Position numbers and translations under genes: made by a program. Positions 2,857 through 17,520 of a stretch of 39,783 bases of DNA are shown here, one piece after another. Each line of letters opens with the position of its first letter. The stretch's first letter is position 1. Under the pieces are notes generated by a model. The model was not told where the DNA came from and did no database searches. It saw only the letters and a list, made by a program, of their open reading frames with translations. The stretch comes from a virus, in IMG/VR virus record IMGVR_UViG_3300042878_000226, positions 1-39,783 of that record. One strand, 5' to 3'.

Positions 2857-2900
2857 TGTATTCTCCTTAAGAATTTTTCTACCGTTCATTAGGATATTGT

Positions 2901-2983
2901 TATCCCATAGGGTACACCTCTACAGTGTAACCTATGGGATACCCTAGTTTATAGATTAGTTATAACATAATCATCTAGGGTAT
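2901..2983. repeat. double-hairpin element, copy 1
   Basis: Hairpin A (2901-2941) has 17-nt arms, starting TATCCCATAGGGTACAC, around the loop CTCTACA with one mismatch. Its right arm runs into a second inverted repeat, ATACCCTAG (2939-2947) with CTAGGGTAT (2975-2983). The two hairpins share the GATA junction, so full formation of one competes with the other. Copies 2 and 3 lie at 3050-3116 and 4104-4167. Confidence 0.85.
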
Positions 2984-3049
2984 ACACCATTGAATATTGT
3001 AGAGTAGGGGATCAATCGTCATTGATCTAGTAATATCTCCCACTCTATA

Positions 3050-3116
3050 TATCCCATAGGGTACACCTCTACAGTGTAACCTATGGGATACCCTCGGTGT
3101 ACACCAAGGGTATCCC
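3050..3116. repeat. double-hairpin element, copy 2
   Basis: Hairpin A (3050-3090) is identical over all 41 bases to copy 1. It runs into hairpin B, GGGATACCC (3085-3093) with GGGTATCCC (3108-3116). The centre of B is the palindrome GGTGTACACC. The outer arms of B match copies 1 and 3 but the centre differs, so pairing is kept while sequence changes. Confidence 0.85.
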
Positions 3117-3289
3117 CTTACATAGCCACAATAATAATAACCCGTTTGCAAATCGCTGTTATTATATCGTTGACTGTATAGTATTGTAAGATACCACGCC
3201 ACTGATTAAGGACAGTATGCCACCCTATCTATTCTTGTTGGTATAGATACCAATTGTGAACTTTACCCTGCTATAGGTGAGCATAAGTT

Positions 3290-3441
3290 CAACGTACACA
3301 TACATACTTTCTTAACACCTATGTTAGTAAGGTAGTATGAAACAAACATAACAATACTTTTTTATAGAGATGTATAGAACAATACTCTTTACACTTTCTC
3401 ATACCTTTGTTAATGGAGATAGTGTGAAACCCTCATAACTA
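3290..3441. repeat. diverged tandem duplication in non-coding DNA
   Basis: Two adjacent segments of about 65 nt (roughly 3290-3352 and 3375-3441) align: each has ACTTTCT, then ACCTATGTTAGT or ACCTTTGTTAAT, then TAGTATGAAAC or TAGTGTGAAAC, then CATAAC. They have diverged but keep the same order and spacing. They may be paired promoter or protein-binding sites; no function is visible. Confidence 0.5.
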
Positions 3442-3886
3442 CACCCTATTTACGGGAGGATATAGGAACACCGTACTGTAGCAGGGAGAAGGAGATATGT
3501 ATGCATCCACAAATCCTTGTATACTACAGTATGTCCCTATCGTATACCCCGTAGGATATACGATAGACGCACTATGCTTAAGCATCTGTTTATACTGGCA
3601 TAGTCCAGTGTACTTATGGTAGCACAACCACAGTTATCCACACCCAAAGGTATGGACTAGCCGAAGCATTACTGTATTAGTTTTTTACTTGCTGATCTAA
3701 TAAGCAAGACTCTTTAGGAGAAAGTATTAAGGTATCCTATAGAATACATTACATAATAAGAGTGTTACTCTTAATAGGTAGTAGCACCTTTGTCTCACTA
3801 ATTATATTGTGAGAAGCGGACAAGAGGTTACCTAGCCTAGTGTATACATACACTATGGAATGTATCCTATAGGATACCTATGTTTT

Positions 3887-4063
3887 CTACAATTGATTCA
3901 CTACAACTTGAAGACTAGTTTTCATTCGTTTATGCAATTCAATTGCATTTAACACACTTTCATCAGGTGTTTCAATGCGTTGTAATCTAACAATAAATTC
4001 TTCATCTGTAATGTTACCATCATTGTAATCCCTAATTGCATTAACAAGAACAATATTATCCAT
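3887..4063 (-). CDS. small hypothetical protein, 58 aa
   Basis: A short gene of 58 codons (MDNIVLVNAIRDYNDGNITD... ending QVVVNQL) with a TAG stop. It is supported by a perfect AGGAGAATCAA ribosome-binding sequence and by a leader of about 30 bases shared with the gene starting at 1459. The product is acidic in its first half and helical-looking; no known domain. A hairpin with 8-bp arms and a one-base loop (ATGCAATT/AATTGCAT, 3932-3948) lies inside it. One copy of the double-hairpin element (4104-4167) sits just upstream, between this gene and the 51-codon gene, where it could control read-through. Confidence 0.7.
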   Translation of the reverse strand: MDNIVLVNAIRDYNDGNITDEEFIVRLQRIETPDESVLNAIELHKRMKTSLQVVVNQL

Positions 4064-4094
4064 TTGATTCTCCTAATAAAATTACTGAACATTG
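4064..4094 (-). promoter_or_regulatory. shared 5' leader with ribosome-binding site, copy 2
   Basis: The minus strand reads CAATGTTCAGTAATTTTATT then AGGAGAATCAA before the ATG at 4063. It matches copy 1 at about 26 of 31 positions. The double-hairpin element begins only ten bases further upstream, so a transcript from the right passes through that structure immediately before this leader. Confidence 0.55.
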
Positions 4095-4103
4095 GGATAG
4101 AGT

Positions 4104-4167
4104 TATCCCATAGGGTACACCTCTATAGTGTAACCTATGGGATACCCTAGGTAAACCTAGGGTATCC
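4104..4167. repeat. double-hairpin element, copy 3
   Basis: Hairpin A (4104-4144) differs from copies 1 and 2 by one loop base (CTCTATA). It is followed by the most perfect hairpin B: GGATACCCTAGGT (4140-4152), a 2-nt loop, then ACCTAGGGTATCC (4155-4167), 13 bp with no mismatch. It separates the 51-codon and 58-codon genes. No U-run follows it on either strand, so a simple intrinsic terminator is not the obvious reading. Confidence 0.85.
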
Positions 4168-4171
4168 TTGT

Positions 4172-4327
4172 TCACCTTAATCGGTAGTAAGGTGCAAACA
4201 TTTTTAATAGAACATTTTGATCTCTATTAGAGATACCATTCCTCCGCATCATTGCTTTAGTTTTAACTACTCTATCAGGAGTAGTAGTATTAAGCAACTG
4301 TCTCTTGATAGACTCAAAGTCTATCAA
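4172..4327 (-). CDS. possible small protein with TTG start, 51 aa
   Basis: A 51-codon frame (MIDFESIKRQLLNTTTPDRV..., ending YYRLR) starts at a TTG that overlaps the TGA stop of the 71-codon gene upstream as TTGA, mirroring the ATGA overlaps used elsewhere in the window. A GAGGTG ribosome-binding sequence lies 4 bases before the TTG. The product is basic, with a helix-turn-like, Arg/Lys-rich centre (VVKTKAMMRRNGIS). The TTG lies in the arm of a perfect 10-bp hairpin with a CAA loop (4305-4327), which could hide the start. No homology is recognised, so it may be a chance frame, although the coupling and ribosome-binding site argue for a gene. Confidence 0.45.
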   Translation of the reverse strand: MIDFESIKRQLLNTTTPDRVVKTKAMMRRNGISNRDQNVLLKMFAPYYRLR

Positions 4328-4539
4328 AGTTCACCTCTATTAAAGTGTTCAATTTGTTCTCTAACAAATTCATTCCAAGCGATGTAATGAATGCCACTTT
4401 GTTCCTTGGCTTCTGCCAAGGATGCAAAGTAATAAGTTTCATTATCACCATCGTGTGTGAATGACCAACGACCATCACCTTCATTGGTGATGGGGAACAT
4501 CTTAACATTATCAACAGTTGAAACTGAATAATTAAACAT
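4324..4539 (-). CDS. small hypothetical protein, 71 aa
   Basis: A 71-residue protein (MFNYSVSTVDNVKMFPITNE...) with a compact, acidic, beta-then-alpha appearance: a strand-rich first half (GRWSFTHDGDNETYYF) and a helical C-terminal half (WNEFVREQIEHFN). The start has the AGGAGAATCAA leader shared with the genes starting at 1459 and 4063. Three perfect hairpins lie in the coding sequence: 4351-4370 (AATTTGTT/AACAAATT), 4403-4422 (TCCTTGGC/GCCAAGGA) and 4472-4493 (CCATCACC/GGTGATGG). No function is recognised. It follows a terminator, so it probably has its own promoter between 4540 and 4612. Confidence 0.7.
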   Translation of the reverse strand: MFNYSVSTVDNVKMFPITNEGDGRWSFTHDGDNETYYFASLAEAKEQSGIHYIAWNEFVREQIEHFNRGEL

Positions 4540-4560: not shown

Positions 4561-4612
4561 ATACTAAACTAAACACAAACCACATTACCATCAAACAATG
4601 ATAATAATGTAT

Positions 4613-4653
4613 AAAAAAAGAAAAAAGCAAGGGCGAGTGTGCAGTCCTCGCCC
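4613..4653 (-). terminator. rho-independent terminator
   Basis: On the minus strand GGGCGAG (4653-4647) pairs with CTCGCCC (4637-4631) around a 9-nt loop. After a TTGC spacer comes a T-rich tract of 14 bases with a single C (4626-4613). This is a textbook intrinsic terminator just after the 116-codon gene, and it ends transcription coming from the structural genes or from that gene. Confidence 0.85.
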
Positions 4654-4657
4654 CGCT

Positions 4658-4943
4658 GTGATCCCTATGGGATCACTTGAACAGATCAGCAAGTGAGGTT
4701 GCTTTAGCAACCTTAGTCACTTTCACTTCCTTGCGGGGCGTTGCTTTAGCAACGGCTTGTATAACTGGAACAGTTATAGATCCCGTGAAGTGAGGTGCTT
4801 TCTCACTACTTCGCTCTTTGGCAAGCCAAAGAGCAAAGCCAACACTAATTTCACTTTCACTTGGGTTCTGTTCAAACAGTTTGAACAGAACAGAAACATC
4901 GTGCTTGGTTATCTTAAGATAACCACCGACCGCAGGAGCGGTC
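4658..4943. repeat. chain of hairpins inside a coding gene
   Basis: Nine hairpins follow one another with little space between. They are 4658-4676 (GTGATCCC/GGGATCAC), 4691-4722 (AAGTGA/TCACTT around GGTTGC/GCAACC), 4739-4754 (CGTTGC/GCAACG), 4760-4778 (TATAACTG/CAGTTATA) and 4787-4812 (GAAGTGAG/CTCACTACTTC, one bulge). The rest are 4813-4834 (GCTCTTTGGC/GCCAAAGAGC), 4865-4891 (GTTCTGTTCAAA/TTTGAACAGAAC, 12 bp), 4906-4925 (a perfect 20-base palindrome centred on CTTAAG) and 4928-4943 (GACCGC/GCGGTC). Arm sequences are mostly unrelated, so this is not a dispersed repeat family. Confidence 0.9.
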
Positions 4944-5023
4944 TCCTTTGCGTCTTCCTTGCGCAACCAACCTGCGATACTTGAGCGAGTTGTTTTCTTA
5001 AACGATGAGAAAGGTGATAACAT
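4673..5023 (-). CDS. hypothetical basic protein encoded by a hairpin-dense gene, 116 aa
   Basis: A 116-residue protein (MLSPFSSFKKTTRSSIAGWL...) with a TAGGAGA ribosome-binding sequence before the ATG and an intrinsic terminator just after its stop, so the gene looks real. The N-terminal 90 residues could be one small fold. The C-terminal 30 residues are a Lys/Ala/Val-rich tail with two VAKAT copies (about residues 93 and 105) ending in SLADLFK, like the flexible tail plus tip of some nucleic-acid-binding proteins (inference). I do not recognise the family. The oddity is at nucleotide level: nearly every few codons fall in a perfect inverted repeat, including the one spanning the stop codon, with hairpins in different codon phases. 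Confidence 0.75.
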   Translation of the reverse strand: MLSPFSSFKKTTRSSIAGWLRKEDAKETAPAVGGYLKITKHDVSVLFKLFEQNPSESEISVGFALWLAKERSSEKAPHFTGSITVPVIQAVAKATPRKEVKVTKVAKATSLADLFK

Positions 5024-5118
5024 TGTGCGAGTCTCCTAGAAAGTGTGAATGCAGAAGCCACAATGGCAACTGCTATAACCATATCGCCGAGCAGAAAATC
5101 GGTGGAAAAGCCGAATAG

Positions 5119-5142: not shown

Positions 5143-5293
5143 GCCGACCGCCGAGACCCCCCCCCCCCTCTTACCCGTGTGTGCGTGTGTGACTGCGTGA
5201 TGCGCCTAGGCGGGCACGGGGGGGCGGGCGCACACGAAGCGGGAGCGTACCCCCTCGTAAATCTTTGACCCCTAAGTCGATTTATAAGTCAAG
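5143..5293. other. GC-rich non-coding island with C12 and G7 runs
   Basis: This stretch between the 93-codon and 116-codon genes has no gene that I can support and is far richer in G and C than its surroundings. It contains 12 consecutive C (5157-5168), GT-rich DNA (GTGTGTGCGTGTGTG), the palindrome CGCCTAGGCG (5203-5212), 7 consecutive G (5218-5224) and CCCGTG/CACGGG arms. It could be a control or processing site, or contain a G-quadruplex on the minus strand. The homopolymer lengths could also be sequencing errors. Confidence 0.6.
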
Positions 5294-5575
5294 TTACCAT
5301 TTAACCTTATCAGCCCAATAGGCAGCACTTAGCTTCCCCTTGGCAATGTTCTGGGCATGCCGTGCCTTGAAGGATTTTCTCTTAGCCTTCATACGGTCAG
5401 ACTCTCCAGCCTTGGGAGCACCCGCAGTGGATGCACCTTGTTCGCCAAAGCGGATTGTTTTGATTGTAGTACCTGACTTAGCAACTACGACATGAGACTT
5501 CTTAGGATGGCTGGGGGTCTTCTTAGGTTGATTGAAACCTTTGACACCAGCCCGACTGAGACGTGAATCTTTCAT
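5294..5575 (-). CDS. small basic phage protein resembling DUF6321, 93 aa
   Basis: The pattern SRAGVKGFNQPKKTP near the start, the central VVVAKSGTTIKTIRFGEQG, and the end KRKSFKARHAQNIAKGKLSA followed by AYWADKVKW match a family of short basic phage proteins that I recall as DUF6321. Members share the 'SRAG..GFN.PK.TP.HP.KSHVV', 'TIRFGQQG' and 'SFKARH..NI.KGK.SAAYWA..VKW' blocks. The function is unknown. The high Lys/Arg content suggests contact with nucleic acid or a packaged role (inference). Length agrees with the family. It is the first gene after the giant 3888-codon gene, behind a terminator-like repeat cluster. Confidence 0.75.
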   Translation of the reverse strand: MKDSRLSRAGVKGFNQPKKTPSHPKKSHVVVAKSGTTIKTIRFGEQGASTAGAPKAGESDRMKAKRKSFKARHAQNIAKGKLSAAYWADKVKW

Positions 5576-5703
5576 TTGATATCCTCATTATTTTGCAATG
5601 GATGACCGAGCAGGGAGTACCTAGATTAATACCTAGGGGACCCCAAAGAGTATGCCTGTGTGTTTATGTGTTGTTGTATTTACCATGGCGATCGACTAGG
5701 GAG

Positions 5704-5796
5704 AACTATAGGTTAACTTAAGGTTAACCTAAGGGTAACTTAAACAACAACAACTTACAAAAACCTATAGGTTAACCTAAGGTATAACCTATAGTT
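5704..5796. repeat. interleaved GGTTAACC/CCTATAGG repeat cluster
   Basis: The cluster has long-range 12-bp arms, AACTATAGGTTA (5704-5715) and TAACCTATAGTT (5785-5796). Between them lie repeated CTATAGGTTAAC, AAGGTTAACCTAAGG and AACCTATAGGTT palindromes separated by an unstructured CAACAACAA spacer. Several mutually exclusive hairpins are possible. It lies directly downstream of the giant gene, and its right half works as a terminator candidate (next entry). Confidence 0.75.
5757..5796 (-). terminator. candidate terminator after the giant virion gene
   Basis: On the minus strand CTATAGGTTA (5794-5785) pairs with TAACCTATAG (5774-5765) around a 10-base loop. It is followed by GTTTTTG (T run at 5763-5759). 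It lies 58 bases past the stop of the 3888-codon gene. The stem is AT-rich and the T run short, so termination may be only partial, letting some transcripts reach the 93-codon gene. Confidence 0.55.
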
Positions 5797-5853
5797 TATC
5801 TATAGCCCCAACTATGGGTAATCTACTATATTGGTCATTTCCTATTTGTGGTC

Positions 5854-8800
5854 TTACATTGGGGGTGTGGGTGTGTAACTTGGATTGTCCAACAGTTTCC
5901 CAAGTCTTTCACTGACCCCACTGTTTGGCTTAGAAGGTGTCACAGGTGGAACATATTGTTTTACCTGACGACCCATCTCTGGTCTCTGGGCTGCCTTGAG
6001 AGCTGCTGACTGAGGCATGGTCTGTGTTGTTACAGGTGCTGCCACAGGTGACTGAGGAGCTGCTTTGCTGCCTCCACGGAAACCACCACTACCACCACGT
6101 TGCTGACTGAGGTACCGATAAGGCTTCTTCTGTAATCCATCAATGATGAACTGAGCTGTGTGTTTATCATCAAGGTCCATTTGTTCTTCTAAGATTCTAA
6201 CAGGCAACATCTGAGGTGATTTATTAATAAAATGTCCTGGAACTTTTAATAGTCCTTTAGCTACAAGTTTACTGTCACCCTCCATACTACCATCAATAAT
6301 ATCTCCCGAAGCATCTTTAACTGTATTTAACAAACTTGCAACAGAGTTGATACCAACATTAGGTGAACCACCACCTAGGCTTGTTAAAGATTTAATTAAC
6401 TGATCACTTCCTCGTTGCGCTCCTCCTGTCATGTACTTAATTTCTCTTAAGCTACCTTCAAAAACTGGTGACAAAGAACCCATCACAGGCATTCTTGTTG
6501 CAATACGTAAAACAAATTCGGATGGATCATTCTCTAACTCAGCCATAATATCTTCCATCTCTCGACCAGACATCCATTCCCGTAGGAGACTGATAACTGT
6601 TTCAAGGACAGCTACAGAAATAATACCACCAAACATTAAACCAACTGCACCACGTTCAGGTGCGTTCAACATAACATCATCAAACCAAGAACGCATATAA
6701 CTAGTTAGAGAACCTAGTAACTTACCAACCTCGCTAGAATGAAATGCACTTAGTGTTTGGTTTAATCCAAAGCCATGTGTAACTGTTCTCTTACGAACAA
6801 GACCTTCAATACCATACTGGAAATCTGAAGCTGCTGCTCTATATAGCTCAGGATCAATTGGGGGATCCTTCATGTTCTTAAGATCTCGGTAGACCATATG
6901 AAGATCCCTGAAGTCCAGAACACCATCTAAGGCATTGGCTGCATTCATACCATACATCATTGCCTCTAGCTTAGCAGGACTGTCAAGACCAACCTTGATT
7001 GCTTTGAGAGCCAGTAATGAATCAAGTCCTCCAGCTTGTCGAGCAAGACTTTTGTGCATCTTCCAAAGCTTACGTTCTTCTGCTGCGGACTTAAAGCTAC
7101 CTTCCAACAATGCTTGCATAGCAGCACGGTTCTCAGGCAATGCCCGTAAACGCAGGAACTCTTTTAGTTTTCCGTCTCTCATCATTGCAGTCAGGTCTCT
7201 AACGTGCCTTGCCTTTCCATAGTATCGAGCAAGGTTTGTTCCGTCAGTCACTCCACCCGCCAGCACAACTGTCTGTCCTGTCTTTTCTAAAAAGTCTGCA
7301 GTATTTCCAGTCAGTCCAGTGCTGTTGCGCCCACTGTTCCAGATCGCTCGATATGGTTTACTTGTATCTGAATCAAAATCAACATCACCAGTTCCTTCAT
7401 TAAAATGGGTTGAGTGATCTTTAGAGTATTCTTCTAAACTTGTAATAAGATCTCCAACTTCAAGCCGTGTAGCAGAATCTCCTCTATCCCAGAATTTAAG
7501 TAAATTATTTAAATACTTAAACATACCAACAGGAACACTGAGTCCTTTTGTACTTGGAATATTTTTAAGAATTTCCATTACAGTTTCTGGTGCTTGAGAT
7601 AGTCCCCAACCTAAACCACTAGATGTTGAAACTAAATTTCTTGTAGCACGTGAAACATTAGCAATGATTCTAGATTCCGCTCCAAGTCTTGGTATTGATC
7701 CATTATACTGAGCATACTGCCAGATCAACCTAGAAAAACCAGAGGCAACATCGTCGTGGTTTGCTTTTTTATCTACGGCTTTAATACTATCGAAATCCTC
7801 AATATGTTTATGTACCTTAGCTTCTAAAAGCCTAAAGAAATCTTTAGGTCTTAGTCCAGTTGATCCTGCTAGTTGATCTATGCTTTCTTGAAAGATAAGA
7901 TCAAACATTCGGTATTTTGCAAAGTTCTGATATGCTGAATGGAGATCTGTTCTAGCAATATTAAACAACTCAGAGTCAGATAATAGCTCCTCTACTGAAA
8001 AATTTCTAACAGTAGAAAAATAATCATCATGGTGATTTCTATCTAGGACAGGTCTATTATCAACCATAGTTGTTTTACTGTAGTGATATTTTCCTTGTTT
8101 TGTTTTAAAGTCCAACAGTTCTTTCATCTCAACTTCAATTAAAGATTTACCATTAAACTCTTGTTTCCATTGAGAAGTAACATGTTGTTGTTCTCCTTTA
8201 ACAGTATCACGATACTTTACAAGGTCTGCTTCAGAAAGATCTTCTATTGTTTTAGGAATTCTATAAATCTTTGCTTCATTTCCTTTTTCAATTAAAAACC
8301 AATCCTTACCTTTAATTCCAAGTTGTTTAGAAAAATCAAGGTTAGCATTACTAGCGACAGAGTATTCATAAAGTTTTGATAGACTATCTGAATCTAACAT
8401 AGAACCTGATGTAAGTGCAAACTTTCGATTCTTAGTATAGAATGTATTTTGTTTTTCAATATTAAGAATACCCATAGTAATCAATGTATTTACATCAAGC
8501 ATATCATCAGCAAGTTTAGATTCTTTTCTTGTATTAACTATACTTGCCATTAATGTTTTATATCTTTGATTATCTGATAGTATAGACATTAACTTTTCAA
8601 CATGAACTTGAATTGGAAGATAATCTTCTGCTTCAACTAGATCACCATTCTTATCTACAACGGTTCTCCATTGTGTTTTTTCTTCTAATTTAAGAACCTC
8701 TGTATTTAAATGAATCAATTCTAATCTATAGTTCTTTAGAATACTTTCTAACTTAGAGAAATCTTTTTCACCAAATGCAGCAGTAAGTTCAGAACTAGTT

Positions 8801-11800
8801 GGAGATGTTTTATTTTTCCAAGCTTGAATTTGAATCTTTTGTAATAACTTTTTTTCTTCTGGAGTCATCTTTAAAGCAATAGCTTCTGCAGACAATGTAT
8901 GATGGATTCGTGTTAGGTTTGCTGTAAACATAACCGCATCTTGCTTTGCCTTAGCTGCTGACTTAATAGGAATTCCTTCTGGTGATACTAGTTGACCTGT
9001 CATTGCCCTAGAGTCATCCATGAACATTGAAAGAAAGCGCACAGTTAAGTGCATACTACGAAGAGTTGATCCCATATTAGATCCCATCTGTATAAAGTTT
9101 ACAGCCTTTGACATAAACAAACGCCATCTATTTCTATTACTTCGTTCACTACCACCAAAGATTAAAGAAATAAAGTTGTTCTGTCTTAACAACATATTAG
9201 AAGAGTTATTTACTTTACTAGCTATAGTATCAATACGATCACTATTTGTTAATTCTACTTCAGGAACTAATTCTTCTTCGGGTGCCCTAGTTATCTTTGA
9301 ATTTGCAACTCCAGGAAGTGGTGTATCTTTTGGTTTAACTTGCTCTCTACTACGAAGCTCTTCAGCTGTATAAGGTATTAAAGGATTTCCAGATGTATCT
9401 CTAGCATCTAATACACTCTTTACTTCCTTACTAACAGTGCCTAAAGAAAATTTACCATTACGCATAATTACAGAATCATGTGTTACTGGTGGAATAAATT
9501 TAGTATTATTAATTGATACCATATCAGCAGCAATTGCATAAATCTCTTTCATTGATTTACGAACTCTAAGTTGGTTCTTTATAGTAAGCCCATCTTCTAC
9601 CGCTAAAAGAATATCTACTTGTTTCCAGAATTTTTGTATTATTTTTTCTGACCCAAAGATTGTTCTATTGTGGTGCATTATTGATGCATTCAATTCTACA
9701 AAGTCTATAAACACAGACTTGAAACTTTCTGGGATACCTGTGCCAAGTTTTTTTCTAGCGTCTTTTGATAAAGACCTAACAAACTTTTTAAACAAAGCTG
9801 TGAAAGAAGTTGCATCAACTCCACCATCTCGTAAAGATTCATTACTTTCAATTAAACCATTAGCTATTCTATCGTGCTCACTAATGATAGGAATATGTGA
9901 TCCTTCAGGCAAGTCAGTAACCTCTACAGCTTTTGGTTGAATTACAGGAACAGTAGTTCCATCTGGTGCAGTTCCCTTACCTGCAGGTTTAGGTTTACTT
10001 GAAGGTGCAACTGCTGCAGCAGTCGTGGGTGTAGTAACAGTAGGTGTTGTAGTTTTAGCAGGAGCAGCTTTAGGTTTTGCTTTAGCTTCTGTTTTAGGTG
10101 CAACCTTAGCTTCTGTCTTAGGTGCAACCTTAGGTTCAACAAACCGACTGATACCCCCATAAGACCATTGGTGTTGATCAAAGATAAAGTTCATTACTGT
10201 ACGTCCATCTTTTGGATCAATTAACTTGACACCTTCTATATCTAAATGTTCCATTAAAGACATAAATTGTTTGATTGCTTCTTTTTCTTTTCCCTCTTCA
10301 AATAAACGTGTTAAAATATCTACAGCTTGTGCAACATTTATTTTCTTTAACGAGTCTTTAGGTAAGCTTAATAAGATACCTTCCATTGTTTTAAAGGATG
10401 CAAAGAATAGTTTTCCTGCTACCCCTGTAGCTTTTCCCCATGCTCTAAAGTCACCAGTAATAAATTTAATAGCTCTCTTAGGGGTTGAAGAAGTAAATTG
10501 TCCGTTTGGATTTCTTCCTTGTTGAACAACACGCTCAGCTACAACAGGAGTAACATGTGGTGTTAAGCCTGTTACAGGAGTTGTTTTTCCATCCACTTGA
10601 ATAACAGCTGTGACAGGTTCTTCTGATTCCTTAGGAGAAATAACTGGTTGAGACGTTTCTTCTGCAGGATCTGTAGTATCAATGTGTTGTTCTAGTTCAT
10701 CAGTATTGTTTTGTTCTTCTGTTGCTCTTTGAGAATCCTGTAGAATTTCGTTTTCTGTTTTAGTTTTAAAAGCTAGATCACTATCTAGTTCAGTTTTCTT
10801 ACGCATGTTTTCTACAACCATAGAAGCAAGAACTTGATTGCCATCTAAATCATCTATAGTCAATCCTTCTGGTAAGAATAACTCAGTAAATTTTTTAACA
10901 TTTTCTTTAAAGAATCTATGAGCATCTTTAACATTGTTTACAGTTTTATTGTACCCAACATCACGACCAAGAGTAACAATCTCAGCATATTCTTTTCCTT
11001 CAATAATATTACGAACAACAAATTCCATCCAACCTTTGTCTTTTTTATCAAATAAAGAGTATTTATTTTCTTCTGCTAAGTCTATAATAAAACGAAACGC
11101 TTTAGATTTTCTATCTAACTTTGCAGAATACTCTTTATCTTCTCCTCTAATAGTACTAACTAACTGAGGAGGCTCCCCTTCTACATTACTAGCTTCACCC
11201 TTTAAGTCATATTTTGTACCATAAGCTTTTACAAATTGTTGGTATAACATGGATCCACGTTTCTTTTCGGATTCCATCCACTGTTCATTTGTTCCATCAT
11301 ACGTTAATTCCTTAACGTCTGTATAGTAAGAAGAGTTAATAATTTCATTTTCTGTTTCTATAAATAAACCCCAATTAGATCCTGTAAGACCAGCTCTAGT
11401 TTCTTGTGGTGTAAGTTCTTTAATAATAATCTGCCATGCACTGTTTGCAAGATAGTTTAATAAATGATTACGTGTTCTAATTGTTCCATCTTTCCGTACT
11501 AAAGTAGCATCACCAAGGGCTTGTGCTGTATTCATAGCTGTTAAAATAGCATCAAGAGATGTCTGAGAGTTTTTAAAACCAAGAGATGAAAACTTTTTCT
11601 TTAAACGAGATCCAATTTGTCTAGCAACATCAAACCTTTCTTTCCAAAACCTATTAAGAGATTCACCAGTTAAAGGATCATTTGGACGTAGTTTAGAGTT
11701 ATTTAAATCATCGTCTTCTCTTGCGTTTATCAACTCGTTTATTTTTGATAAGTCAGATGGTTCAAACTTTGCATCTGCTATCTCTAAGTCATTTACTAAT

Positions 11801-14800
11801 TGAGCGTGTTCATGCACATCTAATATAGCTAACTTTCTTTCTACTAAGTTTAATCTACGAATTCCATTAACACCGACAGTTAATTTACCACTATCAAGAG
11901 CTTTAACAATACGCCTGATAATTGTTTGGTGGTAGTTAACAAGCTCTCCCGTACCAGTTCCTCTAATAGTTTCATCTGTAGTTCCAATTAAACTTGGATC
12001 AGTTATTATGTTTTCGTCTGGTACTGTACTGTATAATGCTTTCTGTTCCTGTGCTTTAATTTGTTCTGGCGTTAAGGGTACCACAGGTTCTTCTTTAACC
12101 ACAGGAATTTTTCTTGTGGTAGTAATAGATACCTCAGGCTTTTTAATGTTACTCAGTAAAGCTGTAAATAACTTATCATCAACTCCAAACATTGTTTGAA
12201 TGTTGTTTTTAAATTCAGCATTTGTTTGTGGAGAATCTGAAATCTCATTACTAAGAGTAGCTAATCGTCTAACTGCTGTAGTTTTAGTGTATGCAACTGG
12301 TAGTTTAGCTTTAGGGGCAAACATTAAACCTGTTGCAGTTTCATTAAAAGAAACATTGTTTATGGATCGTGCTTGTTTTGGATCTAAGATTACATAATGA
12401 TCATTATTAGTAACAGTAACTTGACCAGAATAATCATTGTATTGAAAACTAGGAGCAAAGATACCATCATATCCCATACGCTGTAATAATCTATGAGCTA
12501 TGATTCTAGCCTCTGCTTGAACTGGAACAGTGATAGATGCTCTACTACTGTGTTCTCGCATGATATCATTTAATTTGTATGGATCATTTCCAGCACTGTC
12601 TAGTAGTTCCTGTGATATTAAATTTAATTTTTGTTCTTCCCATATGCCAATTTTTTCATATGATTTTTGCCATGTTCCGTCTTGTAACTCTAAAGCTTCT
12701 TTTAAATTATCAGGTAAGTCTCTTACTGCGTGTAATCTATTATTTTGTAGGTTTTTTAACCAAGTAGGATCAATTTCTATTTTATTTTCAGTAATAAACT
12801 TTTCAAGTAAATAAGAAATTTGATAATTAAATACATGCCGTGTACTAGAGAAAGGAACTGATATTCTCCTTGGATCAGTCTTTAATTTTTTAAGATACCC
12901 TAACGTATCTACAATAAAAGGTTTTTTTATATTTACATAAACATCTGTATTATAGTTTCCGTATTTAGAACCATCCTTACCATTATTAGTGAAATAAACA
13001 CCAGCTCCTAAAGCTTCATCACCACCAGTTAATCCAATTTTAAATCTAATATCAGATGGAAAATCTTCATAAGGTATTGGCAATGGTGAGCTATGGCGAA
13101 GAGCCATTGGTTCAGTAGAGTTTGGATAAGTAACAACTGTATCTTTAAACATCTTATCAAACTTAGTTTCTTTATTTAAAAGAAGTTCTTTAACCTTTTT
13201 TAATCTCTTACCTTGTCCTTGTGACTCCATAGCTTTCATTAAATCTGTTAATAAAAGTAATGGCATATCTTTATTATCTTCAATACTACCCCTATCAAGT
13301 ACAGTTATTACTCCACCAACGTTATCTGTATTAGGAATAAAACCAACGTTTTCTTTAGGATCTTTTACAACCCGAACAGTAAACTTATTAATATCAATAC
13401 TAGTAGCTGATTTCAAAAGATTAGTTGCTTCACGAACTCGTTGTGGTAATCTGGGTAATTCGTTTGTGTTTGTACTTGTTAATAAACTATCCAAAGTATC
13501 TCTAACTGTATCCATAACAATATAGTTACCAACATTTGTTGGTTTTCGTTGAGGTGCAAATAAATCCCCCATTTCTAACCTATATTCTGCAGCGTCTTGA
13601 TCAGCTGCAGTTTCTAATAAGAAATTTATTGATTGAATTCCTTGGAAGCTGCCAAAAGATATATCTAAATAAGATGGTGTAACTACCAGTTGTTCTGGTG
13701 TTAAGTTCTTATGGTATTCTCGTAAAGCAATGATCTGATCTTTTCTATTAAGAGATGAGTCCATAATAATTGGATTGTTTGGTACAGCCCTATACCCATT
13801 TTCTTTCATAGATTGTATGTGAATATCTACAGTAGATGCTAGATAGCGTTTGTTAATTTCCATATAAGATTGAAATATCTGGGCAAACTTTGCTCTGTTC
13901 TTTACAGTAATACCATCTCGTTTAACATTAAGATAAGCATCAAGTCGGATTGGATCTACAGTCCCATCGGCATGAACTGTTAATGCATGTAAAGATTGTA
14001 CTTCATCTTTAGTAAACAACATATCCTTTAGGGATGGTTCTGTTTTTGTTAGCTTAGCAGAAATCTTGTCATTCAATACTTTAGTAAATGCAACTTTTTC
14101 AGCTGGTGACAATTTCTTTCCAGTTGCAGGGAATTGTTTTAATGCTGCAGTAACTCGGTTCTGATAAGTAATGCGTGTCATCAAAGGACCTGAGTTTTTC
14201 TCAAGCTGACTGAGGACATTTTTTACAGCCGTGTACATCTCATCTTCAGCATCAACCTTACTTAGCTTGAGAGAATTAAACACCTCAACCAAGGTTGTAC
14301 CTACACTGAGGAAACGGTGAAGTAGGGTCTTCTCTACAGCATTTGAATTAGCGGTCTTAAGGAAGACTGCAAGCTTGACCTCATCAATCATCATCTTGGC
14401 TTTGACTTGAGCCATTAGTTCTTGAGTATTACCTGCAAGATAGTACTTGTTAAAGTTATCAGTACCAAGGACTTGTTGAGCTGCATCTAAAAACGCCTGT
14501 TCTGATGTAAACAGTTTACGCATATCCATTAAAGATGAACCATAAGCATGAAGTTCCTCAACATGACCAATCTCATGGAGAACATTCTCTACTCTAGTAT
14601 TACCTGCAACTGAGGTATCCAACTTACCAATCTTAATATCCCCAGCTAGTGAGGTACTTGCACGATCATCTGCTCTAGTTCCCATGTCGCTGATCTTGGC
14701 AGCTACGTTAGAGGTAAAGGATGTATTGACAGTAGAGGCTAGGATGATACGCCGATCAACATCCGTAATGTGACCTAGTGTAACCAACTGATCCAAACGG

Positions 14801-17520
14801 TTAAAGAAGTTTTTAATGTATGTCTTGTTACCAGTTGCATTCTTTAAGAATGACCTAGGGTTATCTAAGGAAGCGTTAATGTTCTTCTGTTGATCAGGTG
14901 TTAATTTTCTAGCCTTAGCCAATCCTCGACTTAAGCTGCGGAGGGTGTGTTCTTTTTCTTCACCAAACAGTTGTCGGTTGATGTTCCGCTCAATAGCTCC
15001 TGTGACCTTTGGATCTTCCATTTCAGCATCAGTAAGCAAGGACATATCCTCAGCTGTATCCTGAGTGATCTCGTCCACTTTCTTTTGGGTTGGCAACGCT
15101 GGGGCTGTGGTGCCCTGTGCTGCGTTCTCTCCCTCTGCGGTAGCTGGTGGTTCTACCTTTGGTCCTGTTGCTTCTGATGGGTTATGGCGACCTTCAGAGG
15201 CATTCTCCATGATTCCCCTGACATTAGAGGTGGCTTTGTCCACAGCTGAAGAGATCGTCCTAGGGGCAAGCTCTGTGCCATTCTTGTGGGCAAGCCTAGC
15301 TTCTGCTTGGTCTTCCTTGCTGATGGTCTTCTCTAGGATTGACCTAGCTTCGTCAAGCTCACCGTACAGCTTAGCTACGTTATTTGCGGGGCTAGAGCTT
15401 CGTCCTGTTACAGGATCAATTATACGCATCTGCTCTGGTTGTCCTGCAGCCTTGTTTGTGAGATCCGTTTCAATATCGGTCATCGCTGAGAAATCACGCA
15501 TATGGTCTTCTGTTCTCAACAGGGTCAGGTATTGTTCTCTTGGCGTGAGCAGAGAGAACCGACCACCCGCACTGTCAGCATCTAATAGATCAGTTACTGA
15601 GGTAACAAACTTACCTAAGACTGCTCGGATGGTAAAGGCTCGCATAGGCTCATTAGGCTGTCGTCTATTTAGAGAATGATCAGGTAGGTTGGCTGCATCC
15701 TTAGGGTTTGATGCCACACTTGCAGCGTCAATAGCTGTAGAGGTGGTTCGGGCTGCTGCATTGATGTCCACAACCGTAGGGTCAACACCCTTGGATACTG
15801 CGGTTTGAATAGCTCCTGCAATAGGATCTTGAATAGTAACTGCTTTGCGGTTCCTAAAAGCAGCAATGTTATCCTTAGTTCTCTGGAAAGGATTGCGTTG
15901 TTGTGGTGCAAAAGCTGGATCTATTCCCTGTTGAGCAAATGCGTTACGGGCTGCAGCGTTGTTTCCTCTAACTGCAACTGTACTGATGACATGACCAACC
16001 ATACCTAAACTAGCACCAAACAATGCTCCTGCTGCTGCAGCTCCCACTACTTCGTCCATACTAAAGACTGATTGCATATCTGGGTTGTAAAAGTACAATG
16101 AGTTAGCAAGGGCAATGTTTTCTTTCTGTCCCACATAATCAATTAGGGAGTTAGAGGTTGCTCCGACCAAAGCACTTGCTCCTGTTGTGCGGAGAACACC
16201 CCACTGCATAGCTAACCGTGGAAGTTTGCCATAGCCCGTCAAGTACCAAGCACTTGACATGACCTGCTTAGCTGCAGATAATGTTTTGTAAAGAATCTGG
16301 AGACCTCGACCTACTCCTACGGCTGCGCCTACTACGGCTCCAACTGGAGCTGCTCCACCAGCCGTAGGTGCTCCAAAGAAAGCTGCACCAATAGCTGTAT
16401 CTACAGCAATAGTACCACCAATTTCTACAGCAATTTCTGCTGCGGTATCAAGACTGCCTACGAAACCATCTTTGAACGATGCAGCAAAGCCATAGATAGA
16501 CTGGTAGGTGGTTGGTACATAGTTACTAAGGCGGCGTTGGATATCACTGACATTCATCTTACTCATCAGCGTCATCAAAGCATGAGTGCTGTTACGGGAT
16601 TGTATAAACAAATCCTCAGTCACACCGTAGTTCAATAACCCATCCCGCACTGTAGGATCCAAAGCAATTTTTTCATTGAACCATGTCTTATAGTCAAAGT
16701 TACGATCAAAGGATTCAACAAGGGCAACCATGTCAGCTGTGCTGGTTGAAGGCAGTTCACCAGTTTCTTTCTCAAGGTCTGTTAACAACTCAGTGTTATC
16801 AAAGCCCATGCTTCGGAGAACCCGAAGACCATCTCCACCCATACGTTGTAAAGCAGGTACAACTGTAGGAGATAAAACTGATGGTGCTGCAGGATTATAA
16901 TCCATTGCAGTATCATAAACTGTCATTGCCATATCAGCAATACCACCAACAATGTTACCAAACCAACCCTGTCCTCGGTAATAGTTAGCGATGTTGGTGT
17001 CTGGAACTACCAAGGTATTATTATGTCGTGCCTTCATGTATGCAATCTTAGACATAGACTGGGTAATTAAATCACCCATTCCTTCTTGTTGCAAGCGTTC
17101 TTCAGGTTGCATCATCAAGTCATTCAACTTAGTTTGCTCACGGGCAATCCCTGCGTCATTGATATCTTCATCAGCAACTGCTACAGGTTGCATAGCAGCT
17201 TGACCAATAAGTTGTCTTAGAAACAGTCCCTGTGAGGGATCTTTACCAAGGGTAACCAACGAGTTGTTCAGCACATTAGCAAAGGCAAGAGACTGGATCT
17301 GATTCAAGGTTCGTGATTCTGCTTCAGTAGGTTCACCTGTAAACCTAGGTTTTACTCCCCAGTTTATAGGATCAGATATACCCTTTGGATCAAACAACAG
17401 GTTTTCTTCAGTACCTTGGTTAGGTGCAAAGTATGTATTCTGTTGATAATCCTGATAGAACGGGAATGCCTTAGGACGTTCATTACGATCATAACTTGAT
17501 TCGGTATAAAGGTTCTTCAT
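5854..17520 (-). CDS. giant virion/polyvalent protein, 3888 aa
   Basis: At 3888 residues this is about 2.7 times the length of T7 gp16 and occupies the matching last place of the internal virion cluster. It is probably packaged and ejected with the DNA (inference). Visible parts, in order, are: Gly/Ala-rich hydrophobic stretches near 360-410 and 488-515; a zincin motif HEIGH at 982-986; and an ADP-ribosyltransferase-like domain at about 1470-1720 with H1476 (HSS), Y1509 (GAGVYFTN) and Q1716 (YVILDPKQ), like the ART-PolyVal family. Then come a helix-turn-helix-like segment near 2165-2205, an Ala/Pro/Lys linker with repeated APKTEAK near 2460-2520, and a membrane-like helix near 3625-3650. The ART and zincin calls rest on motifs I recognise. 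The start shares its A with the upstream stop (TAATG). The gene's middle is markedly more AT-rich than its ends. Confidence 0.9.
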   Translation of the reverse strand: MKNLYTESSYDRNERPKAFPFYQDYQQNTYFAPNQGTEENLLFDPKGISDPINWGVKPRFTGEPTEAESRTLNQIQSLAFANVLNNSLVTLGKDPSQGLFLRQLIGQAAMQPVAVADEDINDAGIAREQTKLNDLMMQPEERLQQEGMGDLITQSMSKIAYMKARHNNTLVVPDTNIANYYRGQGWFGNIVGGIADMAMTVYDTAMDYNPAAPSVLSPTVVPALQRMGGDGLRVLRSMGFDNTELLTDLEKETGELPSTSTADMVALVESFDRNFDYKTWFNEKIALDPTVRDGLLNYGVTEDLFIQSRNSTHALMTLMSKMNVSDIQRRLSNYVPTTYQSIYGFAASFKDGFVGSLDTAAEIAVEIGGTIAVDTAIGAAFFGAPTAGGAAPVGAVVGAAVGVGRGLQILYKTLSAAKQVMSSAWYLTGYGKLPRLAMQWGVLRTTGASALVGATSNSLIDYVGQKENIALANSLYFYNPDMQSVFSMDEVVGAAAAGALFGASLGMVGHVISTVAVRGNNAAARNAFAQQGIDPAFAPQQRNPFQRTKDNIAAFRNRKAVTIQDPIAGAIQTAVSKGVDPTVVDINAAARTTSTAIDAASVASNPKDAANLPDHSLNRRQPNEPMRAFTIRAVLGKFVTSVTDLLDADSAGGRFSLLTPREQYLTLLRTEDHMRDFSAMTDIETDLTNKAAGQPEQMRIIDPVTGRSSSPANNVAKLYGELDEARSILEKTISKEDQAEARLAHKNGTELAPRTISSAVDKATSNVRGIMENASEGRHNPSEATGPKVEPPATAEGENAAQGTTAPALPTQKKVDEITQDTAEDMSLLTDAEMEDPKVTGAIERNINRQLFGEEKEHTLRSLSRGLAKARKLTPDQQKNINASLDNPRSFLKNATGNKTYIKNFFNRLDQLVTLGHITDVDRRIILASTVNTSFTSNVAAKISDMGTRADDRASTSLAGDIKIGKLDTSVAGNTRVENVLHEIGHVEELHAYGSSLMDMRKLFTSEQAFLDAAQQVLGTDNFNKYYLAGNTQELMAQVKAKMMIDEVKLAVFLKTANSNAVEKTLLHRFLSVGTTLVEVFNSLKLSKVDAEDEMYTAVKNVLSQLEKNSGPLMTRITYQNRVTAALKQFPATGKKLSPAEKVAFTKVLNDKISAKLTKTEPSLKDMLFTKDEVQSLHALTVHADGTVDPIRLDAYLNVKRDGITVKNRAKFAQIFQSYMEINKRYLASTVDIHIQSMKENGYRAVPNNPIIMDSSLNRKDQIIALREYHKNLTPEQLVVTPSYLDISFGSFQGIQSINFLLETAADQDAAEYRLEMGDLFAPQRKPTNVGNYIVMDTVRDTLDSLLTSTNTNELPRLPQRVREATNLLKSATSIDINKFTVRVVKDPKENVGFIPNTDNVGGVITVLDRGSIEDNKDMPLLLLTDLMKAMESQGQGKRLKKVKELLLNKETKFDKMFKDTVVTYPNSTEPMALRHSSPLPIPYEDFPSDIRFKIGLTGGDEALGAGVYFTNNGKDGSKYGNYNTDVYVNIKKPFIVDTLGYLKKLKTDPRRISVPFSSTRHVFNYQISYLLEKFITENKIEIDPTWLKNLQNNRLHAVRDLPDNLKEALELQDGTWQKSYEKIGIWEEQKLNLISQELLDSAGNDPYKLNDIMREHSSRASITVPVQAEARIIAHRLLQRMGYDGIFAPSFQYNDYSGQVTVTNNDHYVILDPKQARSINNVSFNETATGLMFAPKAKLPVAYTKTTAVRRLATLSNEISDSPQTNAEFKNNIQTMFGVDDKLFTALLSNIKKPEVSITTTRKIPVVKEEPVVPLTPEQIKAQEQKALYSTVPDENIITDPSLIGTTDETIRGTGTGELVNYHQTIIRRIVKALDSGKLTVGVNGIRRLNLVERKLAILDVHEHAQLVNDLEIADAKFEPSDLSKINELINAREDDDLNNSKLRPNDPLTGESLNRFWKERFDVARQIGSRLKKKFSSLGFKNSQTSLDAILTAMNTAQALGDATLVRKDGTIRTRNHLLNYLANSAWQIIIKELTPQETRAGLTGSNWGLFIETENEIINSSYYTDVKELTYDGTNEQWMESEKKRGSMLYQQFVKAYGTKYDLKGEASNVEGEPPQLVSTIRGEDKEYSAKLDRKSKAFRFIIDLAEENKYSLFDKKDKGWMEFVVRNIIEGKEYAEIVTLGRDVGYNKTVNNVKDAHRFFKENVKKFTELFLPEGLTIDDLDGNQVLASMVVENMRKKTELDSDLAFKTKTENEILQDSQRATEEQNNTDELEQHIDTTDPAEETSQPVISPKESEEPVTAVIQVDGKTTPVTGLTPHVTPVVAERVVQQGRNPNGQFTSSTPKRAIKFITGDFRAWGKATGVAGKLFFASFKTMEGILLSLPKDSLKKINVAQAVDILTRLFEEGKEKEAIKQFMSLMEHLDIEGVKLIDPKDGRTVMNFIFDQHQWSYGGISRFVEPKVAPKTEAKVAPKTEAKAKPKAAPAKTTTPTVTTPTTAAAVAPSSKPKPAGKGTAPDGTTVPVIQPKAVEVTDLPEGSHIPIISEHDRIANGLIESNESLRDGGVDATSFTALFKKFVRSLSKDARKKLGTGIPESFKSVFIDFVELNASIMHHNRTIFGSEKIIQKFWKQVDILLAVEDGLTIKNQLRVRKSMKEIYAIAADMVSINNTKFIPPVTHDSVIMRNGKFSLGTVSKEVKSVLDARDTSGNPLIPYTAEELRSREQVKPKDTPLPGVANSKITRAPEEELVPEVELTNSDRIDTIASKVNNSSNMLLRQNNFISLIFGGSERSNRNRWRLFMSKAVNFIQMGSNMGSTLRSMHLTVRFLSMFMDDSRAMTGQLVSPEGIPIKSAAKAKQDAVMFTANLTRIHHTLSAEAIALKMTPEEKKLLQKIQIQAWKNKTSPTSSELTAAFGEKDFSKLESILKNYRLELIHLNTEVLKLEEKTQWRTVVDKNGDLVEAEDYLPIQVHVEKLMSILSDNQRYKTLMASIVNTRKESKLADDMLDVNTLITMGILNIEKQNTFYTKNRKFALTSGSMLDSDSLSKLYEYSVASNANLDFSKQLGIKGKDWFLIEKGNEAKIYRIPKTIEDLSEADLVKYRDTVKGEQQHVTSQWKQEFNGKSLIEVEMKELLDFKTKQGKYHYSKTTMVDNRPVLDRNHHDDYFSTVRNFSVEELLSDSELFNIARTDLHSAYQNFAKYRMFDLIFQESIDQLAGSTGLRPKDFFRLLEAKVHKHIEDFDSIKAVDKKANHDDVASGFSRLIWQYAQYNGSIPRLGAESRIIANVSRATRNLVSTSSGLGWGLSQAPETVMEILKNIPSTKGLSVPVGMFKYLNNLLKFWDRGDSATRLEVGDLITSLEEYSKDHSTHFNEGTGDVDFDSDTSKPYRAIWNSGRNSTGLTGNTADFLEKTGQTVVLAGGVTDGTNLARYYGKARHVRDLTAMMRDGKLKEFLRLRALPENRAAMQALLEGSFKSAAEERKLWKMHKSLARQAGGLDSLLALKAIKVGLDSPAKLEAMMYGMNAANALDGVLDFRDLHMVYRDLKNMKDPPIDPELYRAAASDFQYGIEGLVRKRTVTHGFGLNQTLSAFHSSEVGKLLGSLTSYMRSWFDDVMLNAPERGAVGLMFGGIISVAVLETVISLLREWMSGREMEDIMAELENDPSEFVLRIATRMPVMGSLSPVFEGSLREIKYMTGGAQRGSDQLIKSLTSLGGGSPNVGINSVASLLNTVKDASGDIIDGSMEGDSKLVAKGLLKVPGHFINKSPQMLPVRILEEQMDLDDKHTAQFIIDGLQKKPYRYLSQQRGGSGGFRGGSKAAPQSPVAAPVTTQTMPQSAALKAAQRPEMGRQVKQYVPPVTPSKPNSGVSERLGKLLDNPSYTPTPPM

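Follow-up and report, generated by a model that had tools for sequence, protein, structure and literature searches.

The early region of phage T7 offers the closest described setting for the gene considered here. In both cases, small variable genes follow the late/early junction, a single-subunit RNA polymerase is encoded downstream (here in the relative G003), and RNA structure has been proposed to matter in the early transcripts. T7 early transcripts made by the host polymerase are cut by RNase III, and the stems described below look too short for typical RNase III sites. Unlike in T7, these stems (6–14 bp) are located inside coding sequence, and searches linked the 116-aa protein that they encode to no known family. 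The second comparison is template-switch mutagenesis, which likewise leaves short, perfect inverted repeats separated by small spacers within genes (PMC8604942, PMC7202029). Quasipalindrome template switching, as reported for genes of yeast and for reporters in E. coli, yields perfect arms and alters adjacent codons (PMC8604942, PMC7202029, PMC3820800). That literature describes individual events per gene, whereas a chain of eight hairpins is found here in one 351-base gene.

The window, that is, the whole 39.8-kb stretch analysed, is a piece of an uncultured phage in which every assigned gene lies on the minus strand. Its terminase matches phrog_38 and PF22530, is of the T7 type, and is 100% identical to that of the nearest complete-looking relative, G003 (IMGVR_UViG_3300034168_000130, 60.9 kb). 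As read from its sequence, G003 encodes a primase-helicase, a DNA polymerase and a single-subunit RNA polymerase, the last an 846-aa protein in which T7-type motifs are recognisable; the window fragment does not include the gene corresponding to the RNA polymerase. The T7-type terminase in the window and the single-subunit phage RNA polymerase in G003 mark the phage as T7-like (autographiviral). The labels "early" and "late" follow gene order by analogy with T7, not expression.

Gene 4673–5023 and its hairpin chain

The 116-codon ORF at 4673–5023 (minus strand) looks like a genuine, rapidly evolving protein gene, since it combines a ribosome-binding site, a terminator and a syntenic homologue with 29% identity. 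The original prediction had described a good ribosome-binding site and a terminator flanking the frame, and both were located: a Shine-Dalgarno AGGAG (5033–5037, minus strand) precedes the ATG at 5023 by 9 nt, and an intrinsic terminator (4611–4653, minus strand), in which a 7-bp GC stem (GGGCGAG...CTCGCCC) is followed by the TTGCTTTTTTCTTTTTTT T run, lies just downstream of the gene. The terminator tail TTGCTTTTTT is near-identical in G003 and G014 and similar in G012. The homologue, a 137-aa protein of G012 (IMGVR_UViG_3300016472_000180), occupies the syntenic slot with its own ribosome-binding site and matches the N-terminal and central part of the 116-aa protein (29% identity over 90 residues, BLASTP E 3e-5). 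Searches of viral contigs, genomes and phage records with the single sequence and a two-row alignment returned no relatives beyond G012. The protein matched nothing in Pfam, PHROGs or PADLOC, AlphaFold modelling of it was not informative (mean pLDDT 38.7), and an Rfam search of 4658–5023 gave no significant match to a known RNA family. A conserved small gene (5294–5575) and ~0.3 kb of non-coding DNA separate gene 4673–5023 from the giant late ORF, and by analogy with T7 it would be the first early gene past the late block and correspond in position to gene 0.3 of T7. The giant late ORF (5854–17520, minus strand) encodes a 3888-aa protein that has no PHROG match and in which a HEIGH metallopeptidase-like motif and an ADP-ribosyltransferase-like stretch were seen by eye.

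The hairpins all lie on the minus strand and are numbered in the direction of the gene. Hairpin 1 (4928–4943; 6 bp, loop 4) encodes ETAPAV, and hairpin 2 (4906–4925), the 20-base perfect palindrome TGGTTATCTTAAGATAACCA, encodes GGYLKITK. Hairpin 3 (4865–4891) has 13 bp and a loop of 1, which as RNA become ~12 bp closed by a triloop, and encodes VLFKLFEQN; hairpin 4 (4813–4834) has 10 bp, lengthened to 14 bp by RNA folding, and encodes ALWLAKER. They are followed by hairpins 5 (4789–4807; 6 bp; SEKAPHF), 6 (4760–4778; 8 bp; SITVPVI), 7 (4739–4754; 7 bp; AVAKAT) and 8 (4696–4713; 8 bp; KVAKATS), and hairpin 9 (4658–4676; 8 bp) spans the stop codon. Together, these nine perfect inverted repeats, with arms of 6–13 bp and eight of the nine within the frame, total ~176 of the 286 bases of 4658–4943. 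The original prediction of nine hairpins over about two thirds of this stretch is thus borne out at ~62%, in a minus-strand gene that extends to 5023; it had also named the 20-base palindrome, and the longest arm reaches 13 bp rather than 12. The observation was right, and stronger than stated.

Of the 74 pairs in the gene and immediately after it, one is GU and the rest are Watson-Crick. The arms occupy all three codon registers. The opening 80 nt of the gene carry no hairpins, and stems begin only past codon 26, in line with the sparing of the initiation region from structure in dsDNA viruses (PMC3072339). Inserted mobile palindromes were dropped as an origin: the hairpins sit inside the stretch aligned with the homologue, and their sequences mostly differ.

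Folding of both strands gave z-scores of −8.4 and −8.3 against dinucleotide shuffles, and the gene folds equally well on either strand. When the protein and the exact codons were kept in synonymous shuffles, the gene had 136 bases in perfect stems (arm of at least 6, loop of at most 8) against 25.3 expected (sd 15.8), and its MFE z was −5.5. No shuffle out of 500 reached 136 stem bases (highest, 92), which argues against chance. The perfect-stem share of 38.7% ranks first among the 1812 ORFs of the window and related loci (mean 3.5%, 99th percentile 16%). A single assembled copy of the gene was found, and no close relative of it is present in genome or viral collections, as might be expected of an assembly artefact. 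However, amplification or assembly does not produce nine independent short palindromes together with an intact frame and a protein that has a homologue, and we regard chance or artefact as hardly credible.

Codon choice in the gene is bent toward pairing. After recoding with phage codon usage, the 116-aa protein still ranked sixth among 489 similar-sized ORFs for stem content, and the amino-acid sequence itself is therefore palindrome-prone. Identity to the G012 homologue is 11/50 inside stems and 15/35 outside (p = 0.056). Some amino-acid choice is probably also bent toward pairing.

Several of these properties would be expected if the hairpins had a mutational origin, in which template switching (quasipalindrome correction) at imperfect inverted repeats perfected near-palindromes in an early region under weak constraint, without any function being selected. 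This process fits the strand symmetry, the very small loops and the nearly perfect Watson-Crick pairing of the arms, as well as the use of all three codon registers. The palindrome-prone amino acids and the lower in-stem identity are also expected if mutation altered the codons together with the protein. Template switching of this kind is an established process, and homogenisation of arms has been documented within coding DNA (PMC8604942, PMC7202029, PMC3820800).

The same slot in relatives and the late/early junction

The mRNA of the G012 homologue folds no better than its shuffles (z about +0.4). Gene 4673–5023 is absent from G003 and G014, where the unique element, a G run and a similar terminator tail again delimit the slot, and the slot shows mild structure (z −2.2 and −2.1). 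Comparison of the slot RNAs among the relatives revealed no similarity outside the flanking elements. Since the homologue lacks excess structure and the gene is missing from the G003 and G014 slot, the hairpins are not a conserved RNA, nor does the protein require them; they are lineage-specific, and the protein is the older feature. A fold conserved across homologues was likewise contradicted by G012, which keeps the protein without excess structure, an outcome that the original prediction had named as refuting, in the one homologue found and at 29% identity, so that a conserved structured RNA overlapping the gene is not indicated.

The suggestion that the protein is a by-product of a structured RNA finds no support in G012, where the protein persists without excess structure. 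Under this explanation, the slot encodes a structured non-coding RNA. While the slot of G003 and G014 does lack a related ORF and would give a moderately structured RNA with a similar terminator at its end, the G012 homologue is syntenic, has its own ribosome-binding site and shows no excess fold, and the slot RNAs are dissimilar apart from the flanking elements. We therefore consider a non-coding RNA quite improbable. The other suggestion, that protein and fold are both under selection, fares better: codon choice and probably some amino acids favour pairing, and the protein has a syntenic homologue, but the part that concerns selection on the RNA is unproven. Joint selection on protein and RNA is plausible.

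The late/early junction is marked by a unique element at 5247–5284 (minus strand), after gene 5294–5575; its 38 bases recur unchanged in G003, and G012 and G014 have recognisable versions. This 38-bp element may be a genome end or packaging site. A repeated phage promoter was dropped as an explanation for it, with one copy per genome. A G/C homopolymer at 5157–5168 has counterparts 9–16 long at the matching place in G003, G012 and G014, and thus forms a G tract of variable length at the junction (L192, 100–113; L195, about 822–836). The contig ends of G003 share an overlap of ~220 bases that differs in this one homopolymer; both ends cover the G tract, with 14 and 15 G, which suggests that assemblies break there. 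Between the giant late ORF and gene 5294–5575, a cluster of TTAGGTTAACCTA-type palindromes (5703–5830) is a possible origin or regulatory site, and clusters of this type occur in relatives (L195, about 190–300; L197, 15880–16000).

The palindromes might instead act as DNA, as extruded hairpins at a genome junction with a role in packaging ends, concatemer processing or replication start. The unique conserved element and the G/C homopolymer lie no more than 0.3 kb from the gene, at the late/early boundary that in T7 is occupied by terminal repeats, and the stems of the gene are strand-symmetric. On the other hand, G012, G003 and G014 share the junction and yet show no or only mild excess in the slot, and the junction element itself is not within hairpins. 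A DNA-level role is thus unlikely, though less so than a non-coding RNA. N4-type hairpin promoters were dropped from consideration, given that the polymerase of G003 is of the T7 type and that no PHROG family was matched by the giant late protein.

The hairpin-rich early region and its Pistol ribozyme

The original prediction overlooked that the hairpins of gene 4673–5023 belong to an early region rich in hairpins, of which they form one dense portion. At 4–5 kb of the window, the density of hairpins with arms of 7 bp or more rises to 16 per kb, against ~1–3 per kb across most of the window. The next early gene (4324–4539, minus strand; 71 aa) is hairpin-dense, with 22% of its bases in perfect stems, and the rest of the island (2890–4323, minus strand) is mostly non-coding and hairpin-rich. 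Family stem counts were made in 4-kb bins, the first one starting directly after the giant late ORF. In every one of the nine family genomes, the sense stems in this first bin number 1.7–2.4 times the expectation; of the eight long relatives, seven have their highest count there, and in G003 the bin ranks second. No comparable stem peak was found in Limnohabitans phage YIMV22061, in Roseobacter phage CRP-5 or, in a further difference from the present family, in T7, which has 14 stems versus 9 expected in its first 4 kb. Gene 4673–5023 is the extreme case of a family-wide hairpin-rich early region. A ~45-nt hairpin-forming element, GGGTATCCCATAGGTTACACTGTAGAGGTGTACCCTATGGGATA, occurs three times in the window (2901–2944, 3050–3094 and 4104–4150) and several times in G003 (L192, about 1919–2287). 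In the GP88-family gene (PF17338; 1708–2430, minus strand), mRNA folding beats codon shuffles with a sense z of −5.0 versus −1.6 for antisense.

Stems that contain GU pairs exist on one strand only and were used to compare sense with antisense. Across the nine early regions, sense GU stems number 309 versus 174 expected (1.77-fold, z 11), and antisense ones 171 versus 118 expected (1.44-fold, z 5). The early region of the window itself has 23 sense GU stems versus 19.1 expected and 26 antisense versus 15.8, together with 21 perfect Watson-Crick stems versus 1.8 expected. Between the window and G003, pairing-preserving single changes in alignable early genes amount to 86/249 in sense and 60/234 in antisense, a weak sense bias.

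A predicted self-cleaving Pistol ribozyme (RF02679) lies at 3546–3609 on the minus strand, in the same sense as the genes. It is a separate element, outside the hairpin gene and 0.7 kb downstream of the next gene. Its covariance-model score of 39.3 bits exceeds the gathering threshold of 34.5, and its sequence contains the conserved core and pseudoknot arms expected of the class. Counterparts in G012, G050 and G032 score 38.9–50 bits (L197 13694–13767, minus; L205 13583–13653, plus; L201 12923–12994, minus), and in G050 the pseudoknot arms have changed together. Four family members thus have sense-oriented predicted Pistol ribozymes within the early region. To our knowledge, the biological role of this ribozyme class is still open.

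Selection on early RNA versus mutation

The family-wide peak, the sense-biased GU excess and the sense Pistol ribozymes in four members point to RNA. The stem content that no synonymous shuffle reached and the hairpin-free start of gene 4673–5023 also speak for a selected RNA structure. We consider RNA-level selection on early transcripts the best, though unproven, explanation of the hairpin chain, and we hold it with somewhat less than even confidence. Gene 4673–5023 would be transcribed as early RNA, and its mRNA would form a chain of stable local hairpins because the early transcripts of the family are, as we propose, selected to be hairpin-rich. Such hairpins may protect the early RNA, cause pausing or assist in its processing; in four members, that RNA would also bear the self-cleaving ribozyme. 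If density rather than sequence matters, each lineage and gene would solve the demand for hairpins anew. In its full form, this proposal is that a T7-like family keeps its early transcripts as dense hairpin chains with a self-cleaving ribozyme, under a pressure on density and not on a particular fold, which in gene 4673–5023 dictates the codons and partly the amino acids; we offer it more tentatively still.

Evidence against selection on RNA comes from the window, whose stems are nearly all Watson-Crick and strand-symmetric with no sense-strand GU excess, and from the sole homologue found (G012), which has no excess structure. No close homologue suited to counting compensatory changes was found. 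Template switching would also give such perfect, strand-symmetric stems, but as a general process it should not spare gene 5294–5575, which has no stems, and most of the remaining genome, nor does mutation alone explain why the same region is enriched in nine of nine genomes with a sense-biased GU component. A purely mutational origin is accordingly doubtful in our view, though a more serious contender than a role of the DNA at the junction. The two processes may also act together, mutation supplying palindromes and selection on early RNA retaining them.

If the hairpins are mutational, gene 4673–5023 would hold an unusually dense record of template switching within one gene. If hairpin density is selected, as we favour, the gene would be a clear case of RNA structure shaping the coding sequence of a DNA virus, linked to the Pistol ribozyme.
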